Positions 46,401-47,210 of a DNA stretch of 64,000 bases are shown here, one piece after another (the stretch's first letter is position 1; the number at the start of each line of letters is the position of its first letter). Source of the DNA: Chromatiales bacterium (lineage in GTDB: Bacteria; Pseudomonadota; Gammaproteobacteria; Chromatiales; Chromatiaceae); contig JANQLO010000071.1 of assembly GCA_028280505.1 (NCBI GenBank), positions 1 to 64,000 of the forward strand, read 5' to 3'. Below the pieces are notes generated by a model that saw only the letters and a program-made list of their open reading frames with translations, searched no databases and was not told the DNA's origin. The position numbers and the translations under genes were made by a program.

Positions 46401-46699
46401 TTCCAGGCTCCGGATTCAGTTGGCGGATCTGATGTTTCAGTTAGCGTAAATGCTGTGCATGAAGAGCGCAAGTCGCTGAACTCGATGAATTTTCTGCCCA
46501 AGCATGAAGATTTTTGATGGTTGCGGTCATAGATCGTGACGATGTGTCGAGGTTGCTGTCGTTCGAGCTTATCGGTATCCGGTAAATCTGATGTGGTGGT
46601 GCCGATACCGCACTGGTACAGTCGGGTTTTCGGGGCCGCAGCGAGGATTGCCGTAGAAACAGCTCCGGGCTGCGCCATGGAGGGTGCATCGTACATAAA

Positions 46700-46770
46700 C
46701 AGCTGGGGGTGCCCGCAAGTCGGGCTGAGAGAGTCCCTTCGAACCTGAACCAGTTAGCACTGGCGTAGGG
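46700..46770 (+). ncRNA. TPP riboswitch aptamer 1 (thiC leader, promoter-proximal)
   Basis: THI-box core: GGGGGTGCCC, the P3 hairpin CCCG/CGGG, CTGAGAGAGTCCC, TTCGAACCTGAACCAG, then CACTGGCGTAGGG. These are the conserved bases of the TPP aptamer, including CUGAGA (pyrimidine sensor arm) and GAACCUGA (diphosphate arm). The 5' flank CAGCT (46700-46704) matches the P1 strand of copy 3, but the 3' flank here is TGAGG and cannot pair with it. The closing P1 stem is therefore absent or non-standard. Confidence 0.92.
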
Positions 46771-46858
46771 TGAGGGAGGACCGAATGTCCGGTGGACATT
46801 CGCAGCCGAACGAACGCCCTGCCATGGATGTGGCAGGGCCGGGGTGAGAAAATTGCCT
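46771..46858 (+). repeat. Linker 1 with two perfect hairpins
   Basis: Between aptamers 1 and 2. Hairpin A spans 46782-46802: stem CGAATGTCC/GGACATTCG with loop GGT (9 bp). Hairpin B spans 46816-46839: stem GCCCTGCCA/TGGCAGGGC with a 6-base loop. Neither is followed by a T-run, so they do not look like intrinsic terminators. A GGGAGGA stretch at 46774-46780 precedes them. Confidence 0.85.
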
Positions 46859-46892
46859 CGGGCTGCGCCATGGAGGGTGCATCGTACATGAA

Positions 46893-46963
46893 CAGCTAGG
46901 GGTGCCCGCAAGTCGGGCTGAGAGAGTCCCTTCGAACCTGAACCAGTTAGCATTGGCGTAGGG
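46893..46963 (+). ncRNA. TPP riboswitch aptamer 2 (middle copy)
   Basis: It has the same conserved core as copy 1. The only clear change within the P5 arm is CATTGG for CACTGG, which turns one G-C pair into a G-U pair and keeps the helix. The 5' P1 strand CAGCT (46893-46897) is kept. The 3' flank is again TGAGG, so P1 cannot close in the standard way. Confidence 0.92.
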
Positions 46964-47049
46964 TGAGGGAGGACCGAGTGTCCGGTGGACATTCGCAGCC
47001 GAATGAACGCCCTGCCATGGATGGCAGGGCCGGGGTGAGAAAATTGCCC
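46964..47049 (+). repeat. Linker 2 with two hairpins
   Basis: Copy of linker 1. Hairpin A (46975-46995) has a G-U pair from a single A-to-G change, so pairing is kept. Hairpin B (47009-47030) has the same 9-bp stem, but its loop is shortened by two bases to TGGA. Changes fall where they do not break the helices, which hints that the structures matter, though two copies are too few to prove it. Confidence 0.8.
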
Positions 47050-47083
47050 CGGGCTGCGCCATGGAGGGTGCATCGTACATAAA

Positions 47084-47160
47084 CAGCTAGGGGTGCCCGC
47101 AAGTCGGGCTGAGAGAGTCCCTTCGAACCTGAACCAGTTAGCACTGGCGTAGGAAAGCTG
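47084..47160 (+). ncRNA. TPP riboswitch aptamer 3 (thiC-proximal, complete)
   Basis: Full THI-box aptamer with all conserved blocks and a closing P1 stem CAGCT (47084-47088) with AGCTG (47156-47160). The alignment with the E. coli thiC aptamer is direct, including GTAGGAA before P1. This copy should bind thiamine diphosphate by itself and control thiC. It lies 50 bases before the thiC start. Confidence 0.96.
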
Positions 47161-47210
47161 AGTCAAGCCCTGAATCTTGCCTCCTTTCTCCGCCATTTGG
47201 AGATAAACTT
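47161..47210 (+). promoter_or_regulatory. thiC leader: SD-sequestering hairpin (expression platform)
   Basis: TCTCC (47187-47191) can pair with GGAGA (47199-47203), which contains the thiC ribosome site GGAG 8 bases before ATG 47211. The loop is 7 bases. GAAAG at 47153-47157, overlapping the 3' strand of P1, can instead pair with CTTTC at 47184-47188 and would disrupt the sequestering stem. This fits translational OFF control: ligand holds P1, GAAAG is not free, and the ribosome site is hidden. The pairings are seen in the sequence. The mechanism is inferred. Confidence 0.65.

Follow-up and report, generated by a model that had tools for sequence, protein, structure and literature searches.

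The DNA analysed here, referred to as the window, is a 64-kb stretch of G000, a draft genome in 85 contigs. Within it, thiC (47211-49103, + strand; Pfam ThiC_Rad_SAM, E 4e-184, and ThiC-associated, E 1.2e-30) is preceded by three TPP aptamers on the same strand, all above the Rfam gathering cut-off of 54.3 bits in a cmscan search of the window (RF00059; 46695-46789, 59.5 bits; 46888-46982, 54.6 bits; 47079-47172, 75.7 bits). No other Rfam family reaches its gathering score in the window, and no further TPP match is found in the G000 genome. The aptamers sit in a direct repeat with spacings of 193 and 191, which TRF reports as 2.5 copies of period 193 at 46665-47153. The original prediction of three THI-box aptamers before thiC, in register with a 193/191-bp repeat, is borne out by both programs; it had proposed scoring each copy with the Rfam model and named copies 1 and 2 as those that might fall below threshold, and both lie above it. 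About 120 nt of each repeat unit of approximately 192 nt is not aptamer, and consists of a structured element, here termed X. An imperfect 21/42/63-nt tandem repeat lies elsewhere in the window, at 56565-56725.

At the upstream end of the leader, a candidate extended -10 element, TGGTACAGT (46614-46622, + strand), is the likely promoter element of the thiC transcript; a consensus scan reports no sigma-70 promoter at this position, and by inspection a similar TGGTANAGT precedes the aptamer in several sister species. Below it, a hairpin visible in the sequence, GCGCC-ATGGAG-GGTGC (46672-46687, + strand), resembles the last hairpin of X and is spanned by a weak match to the X model R1 (46583-46699, 26 bits, E 4.3e-4). 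This hairpin is read as the remnant of a truncated first X. Aptamer copy 1 (46695-46770, + strand) stops right before the 3′ strand of helix P1 and passes into X copy 1 (46771-46891, + strand), a TGAG followed by hairpins 1-4, with scores of 128.3 bits for R1 and 81 bits for R2, this copy being among the sequences used to build both models. Aptamer copy 2 (46888-46963, + strand) ends at the same point and passes into X copy 2 (46964-47082, + strand; R1 134.6 bits, R2 82.3 bits). X copy 2 contains GCCCTGCC-ATGGAT-GGCAGGGC, the sole perfect hairpin on either strand of the window with a stem of at least 6 and a six-base ANGGAN loop. Aptamer copy 3 (47079-47172, + strand) is complete, with no broken pair marked, and is followed by a predicted hairpin enclosing the GGAG ribosome-binding site (47186-47203, + strand), its likely expression platform.

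The three copies differ in the closing helix. Against RF00059, three of the five P1 pairs are broken in copy 1 and again in copy 2, as both lack the normal P1 3′ strand; in copy 3 none is broken, and CAGCT (47084-47088) pairs with AGCTG (47156-47160) to form a P1 of 5 bp. Only copy 3 combines P1 with a hairpin enclosing the ribosome-binding site, and when the closing helix is used as the test of RF00059 membership, copy 3 passes and copies 1 and 2 fail. The claim that the few changes between copies fall at tolerated positions fails for P1. In the arrays of G000, G001 and G007, all five internal copies show the junction GTAGG/GTGAG without the normal P1 3′ strand and retain the ligand-binding core, and all three last copies have a P1 of four or five pairs. 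In G001, copy 1 could form four P1 pairs through a shifted strand.

In folding predictions, the cost of forcing the aptamer core is 8.7 and 6.1 kcal/mol for the internal copies of G000 versus 3.8 for the last, 6.4 and 11.7 versus 5.4 in G001, and 0.3 versus 0.8 in G007, where, by prediction, AGCTG of X can pair with the 5′ strand of P1. The ribosome-site hairpin appears in both predicted folds that span the region, neither of which is more stable than its shuffles (z 0.15 and -0.58), and a TCTCC...GGAGA resembling it is seen by inspection in several sister leaders. Without ligand, the most stable fold predicted for copy 3 differs from the aptamer, and no intrinsic terminator is found in 46500-47260. 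Copy 3 is the one complete TPP riboswitch and probably acts on translation, the 47186-47203 hairpin being the part that would switch in response to TPP.

X is a structured element of about 120 nt (range about 100-130 nt) with the order (GG)GTGAG-hairpin-GAACG-hairpin, and GGG lies directly 5′ of it in 93 of the 114 copies with sequence at that position. The R1 alignment was built from the array spacers of G000, G001 and G007, joined by sequence lying 5′ of the lone aptamer in G002 and in G050, the latter from another genus; four hairpins are common to all, and 7 of 33 predicted pairs carry double changes. In the R2 core model, built on 15 copies, 94.5% of cells are paired, 16 of 23 pairs carry double changes and the covariation score is 0.547 against 0.140 for shuffled data (0/500), counts that lean toward structure because three divergent copies were excluded and the sequences are mostly R1 matches. 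No Rfam family matches X above its cut-off, either in the window or at the X-bearing loci scanned. Below the cut-offs, SorX overlaps three X copies of locus L180 on the opposite strand (19.4-22.3 bits, cut-off 46.6, E 0.22-1.5), and TwoAYGGAY (E 6.1) and twister-sister (E 4.6) touch X in the window. A role of the spacer as terminator of copies 1 and 2 was considered and rejected, as no terminator was found and X also occurs away from riboswitches. A literature search for X and for partial-tRNA arrays, a weak one with little coverage of subscription journals, found no description of X.

Dispersal of X within G000 is visible by the structure model only: BLAST of the spacer against the genome returns the leader itself and two chance-level matches, and R2 finds nine places at E ≤ 1, one of them weak. 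With R1 at E ≤ 0.1, 56 of 142 relatives have matches, which include tandem copies and copies next to tRNA genes. R2 finds matches in 57 of 369 genomes of the class and in 9 of 398 drawn from the phylum, eight of these nine belonging to the same class. X is present in six of the nine genomes of the genus and at none of 80 named thiC loci; plasmids gave two partial matches and phages none. Several further settings were seen along the way. Thirteen very similar copies in G153 (L254-L266), several of them accompanied by a second X-like unit, appear by eye to lie inside a larger element with inverted ends, and they lack clean ends because they sit within this larger repeat. G709 (L308-L311) has twelve very similar matches in a span of about 160 kb, and by eye these interrupt a different dispersed repeat that forms hairpins. 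In G003 (L158:416-1087), X follows the last codons of nusG, identified by a family search, and the nusG stop codon lies inside X; by reading, X follows the last nusG codons in L172, L179, L166 and L222 as well.

The common layout around X is a gene fragment, then X, then the same fragment with the rest of the gene. It occurs at tRNA genes on both strands, 5S rRNA, urtE and thiC, and at tRNA genes it takes the form of the 5′ part of the tRNA, X, and the whole tRNA. In one G000 example, ACGGGCCTATAGCTCAGTTGG runs into GTGAG and X, and beyond X a second ACGGGCCTATAGCTCAGTTGG continues into TTAGAGC. R2 gave 146 matches on 90 loci, which reduce to 116 distinct copies and, with four lacking a flank, to 112 scored; the loci are the best-scoring of each search and thus a non-random set, in which arrays yield several matches per locus. 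An ungapped repeat ending at X with a score of at least 12 accompanies 62 of the 112 copies versus 0 of 530 when other endpoints within the same locus served as controls. A second control, using the downstream side of another locus, gave 15 of 560, such loci often sharing tRNA sequence. Counted by locus and strand, 43 of 80 sets carry the repeat.

The shortest clean repeats are 15 nt long, and the longest are a perfect 94 nt and, beyond that, about 107-110 nt, single lengths being uncertain where an older X stands upstream and is partly included in the measured repeat. The junction lies in a tRNA gene, as placed by ARAGORN, in the sense orientation in 13 of the 43 sets and antisense in another 13, and falls in the D-arm, the anticodon arm or the T-arm. 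The other 17 sets, elsewhere or unplaced, include 5S rRNA (2), thiC aptamers (3), urtE (1) and junctions that could not be placed (4). Several loci hold arrays of whole units. No repeat is detectable at 50 of the 112 copies. For copies without a near repeat, a search to the end of the locus (63 to 2,326 nt) found none at a score of at least 12, and the idea that X is part of a longer autonomous element was rejected on this result.

Related genomes hold both filled and empty versions of the same sites. A TPP match at E ≤ 0.001 is found in 100 of 142 relatives (G000 included), in a search with stricter filters that loses weak matches, and among the places listed tandem aptamers occur in four genomes: G000 (three), G001 (three), G007 (two, on one contig) and the distant G120 (two). 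Within the genus, thiC has one aptamer and no X in five of nine genomes (G003, G004, G005, G006 and G008), X with a single aptamer in G002, and arrays in G000, G001 and G007. G002 and G050 carry X before a single aptamer without an upstream fragment, which leaves doubt about what happened first at thiC, and one insertion and several are inseparable there since the thiC tree gives no resolution within the genus. A query for urtE (the NCBIfam-named gene) matched seven of the nine genomes, and the site was compared in six, G003 being left out as no start was located. In G001 and G002, the first ~55 nt of urtE are followed by X and then by the whole of urtE; in G000, G004, G005 and G007, the upstream reading frame leads directly to urtE with no X between them. 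Filled and empty orthologous sites and target duplication, the marks of a mobile element, are thus found at urtE and at thiC. The pair in G120, from a distant family, lies at L043 (G120:C1:3244154-3244486) with a start-to-start distance of 243 nt and precedes a reading frame resembling thiC.

Taken together, copies 1 and 2 are very likely target duplications produced by insertion of X and by later growth of the array, with copy 3 the sole complete switch. X would have inserted after the GG(G) that closes the aptamer core, so that the aptamer as far as GG(G) lies 5′ of X and an intact aptamer lies 3′ of it. The unit of X plus aptamer would have been amplified afterwards, and the arrays presumably grew by unequal recombination. 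At tRNA, 5S rRNA and protein genes, target repeats of about 15-110 nt would in the same manner leave one intact gene. X has a constant layout and a conserved structure, is dispersed, is accompanied by repeats and has filled and empty sites in sister genomes; we infer that it moves as a unit and that regulation owes little to copies 1 and 2. Target-primed copying would suit duplications of variable length with one fixed end after a G-run. No enzyme that would mobilise X was found. The reverse transcriptase RVT_1 (PF00078) was considered and rejected: it occurs in 10 of 21 X-bearing genomes versus 8 of 11 without an X match, X status coming partly from strict-filter searches, and G709, a single contig with 12 X matches, has none.

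Of the original interpretation, the origin of the triplet by repeat duplication stands, and the idea of three complete sensors sharpening the response is not supported, given the five internal copies without a normal P1 3′ strand and a leader in which no terminator was found. A recent expansion without function was among the options it named. It missed that the spacer is a dispersed element found elsewhere in the same order of fragment, X and gene. A cooperative triple switch and a CsrA role are possible additions, not the reason for the array.

That X is instead kept in the leader as a CsrA/RsmA target, its ANGGA loops recruiting CsrA to tune thiC with or without the aptamer copies, is unlikely. 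The loops ATGGAT, ATGGAG and AGGGAT match the CsrA consensus, and of 116 X cores, 91 contain CANGGA or CAGGA in their second half by a crude text count. The G000 genome has four CsrA-family loci (G000:C24, C8, C63 and C36), one with a stop inside the match, and according to PMC5338858, CsrA binds and modulates a TPP riboswitch leader in Legionella. Against this, 18 of the 116 cores have no GGA in the second half, some of them with clear repeats (L230, L237, L239 and L245), X lies antisense to the tRNA gene in the 13 sets described above, and the only Rfam hint, RF01731 TwoAYGGAY, is at chance level (18.3 bits, E 6.1). The CsrA site was demoted as the main reading on these three grounds, the GGA-less cores, the antisense copies and the chance-level match.

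A pseudo-cooperative triple riboswitch, in which all three aptamers bind TPP and give a steeper or graded response, is less probable still. All three window copies exceed the Rfam cut-off, arrays occur in three species with a recognisable binding core, and pseudo-cooperative tandem TPP systems are described in PMC9481103; in the models, the internal core of G007 is nearly free to form and X supplies an alternative P1 strand. The absence of the normal P1 3′ strand from every internal copy and of a detected terminator from the leader argues against it, as do the scores of both G001 internal copies, 53.1 and 50.2 bits and thus under the cut-off, and the higher core-forcing cost of internal than of last copies in G000 and G001.

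It is very improbable that slippage or unequal crossing-over simply duplicated the repeat in tandem and that X is an ordinary, immobile element of the leader. Such an origin would accommodate X before a single aptamer in G002 and G050 and the arrays of whole units, but it does not predict loci in which a single X stands between fragment and gene with no X upstream (urtE in G001, tRNA-Met in G000), nor the same X in unrelated genes on both strands. A wrong copy number from misassembly, conceivable in a draft of 85 contigs, is highly unlikely: substitutions and a 2-base indel separate the copies, three diverged copies are present in G001 as well, and the one-contig G007 has two.

Tandem TPP aptamers (RF00059) are the nearest relatives of the array itself. 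The original prediction held a triple array to be very unusual; it is rare, but already in print: one of the 213 tandem TPP representatives in PMC9481103 is a triple, and PMC12452182 tabulates 'TPP TPP TPP' before thiC in Bacillota. The G000 leader likewise has three aptamers before thiC, but its copies 1 and 2 are without a normal P1 3′ strand or a visible expression platform and are fused to a dispersed element. With CsrA/RsmA-binding RNAs and TwoAYGGAY (RF01731; listed in PMC2864571), X shares hairpins with AYGGAY-type loops, although these loops are not universal in X.

X also bears comparison with short mobile repeats. REP/REPIN sequences, MITEs and Rickettsia palindromic elements are short, hairpin-forming, present at many loci and too short to encode a transposase. 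X, of about 100-130 nt, is like them in its hairpins, its many loci and its lack of room for a transposase; unlike them, it has variable flanking repeats of about 15-110 nt and leaves an intact target, whereas theirs are, as far as is known, absent or short and fixed.

The closest known layout to that of X is rtT of the E. coli tyrT operon (RF00391 RtT; small RNA RttR). Its tandem units close with the 3′ terminus of the adjacent tRNA gene, as X units carry tRNA parts, and by eye it shows TGAG-hairpin ... GAACG-hairpin modules as in X. The stretch of MG1655 examined contains six occurrences of the final 19 nt of tyrT, two of them within whole tRNA genes, and a unit with part of a neighbouring tRNA gene is likewise found for X, whose junction lies in a tRNA in 26 of the 43 repeat-bearing sets. 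X differs in its positions, which lie in sense or antisense in the D-arm, anticodon arm or T-arm of tRNA genes and also in genes of other kinds. In the loci scanned, the RtT model does not match X itself, and R2 fails to recognise the E. coli tyrT region, where it scores at best 7.2 bits (E 0.37); the resemblance between X and rtT is one of layout, and these matches do not demonstrate common descent. At one G000 locus 3′ of tRNA-Ser (L194:1501-1887, G000:C34), an RtT match (1620-1764, 47.1 bits, cut-off 45) and an antisense X stand side by side in one array, each adjoining a copy of the tRNA 3′ end.

Tentatively, X and rtT may belong to one unrecognised class of tiny mobile elements. Such elements would insert after G-runs in structured-RNA genes and at gene ends, restore the gene by duplicating a variable 15-110 nt of target, and later form arrays, scattering partial tRNAs, 5S rRNAs and riboswitches, with tandem regulatory RNAs as a by-product. 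This mechanism is not known to fit any transposition pathway.

In conclusion, the triple riboswitch before thiC can be reread as a side product of element insertion and not as a fine-tuned device. The proposed events outline how partial tRNA copies and tandem riboswitches may arise more generally, and they offer a testable account for the tandem repeats with a tRNA end at E. coli tyrT. Should X prove mobile, an element that spares its target gene while making long, variable duplications of it calls for a mobilising enzyme.
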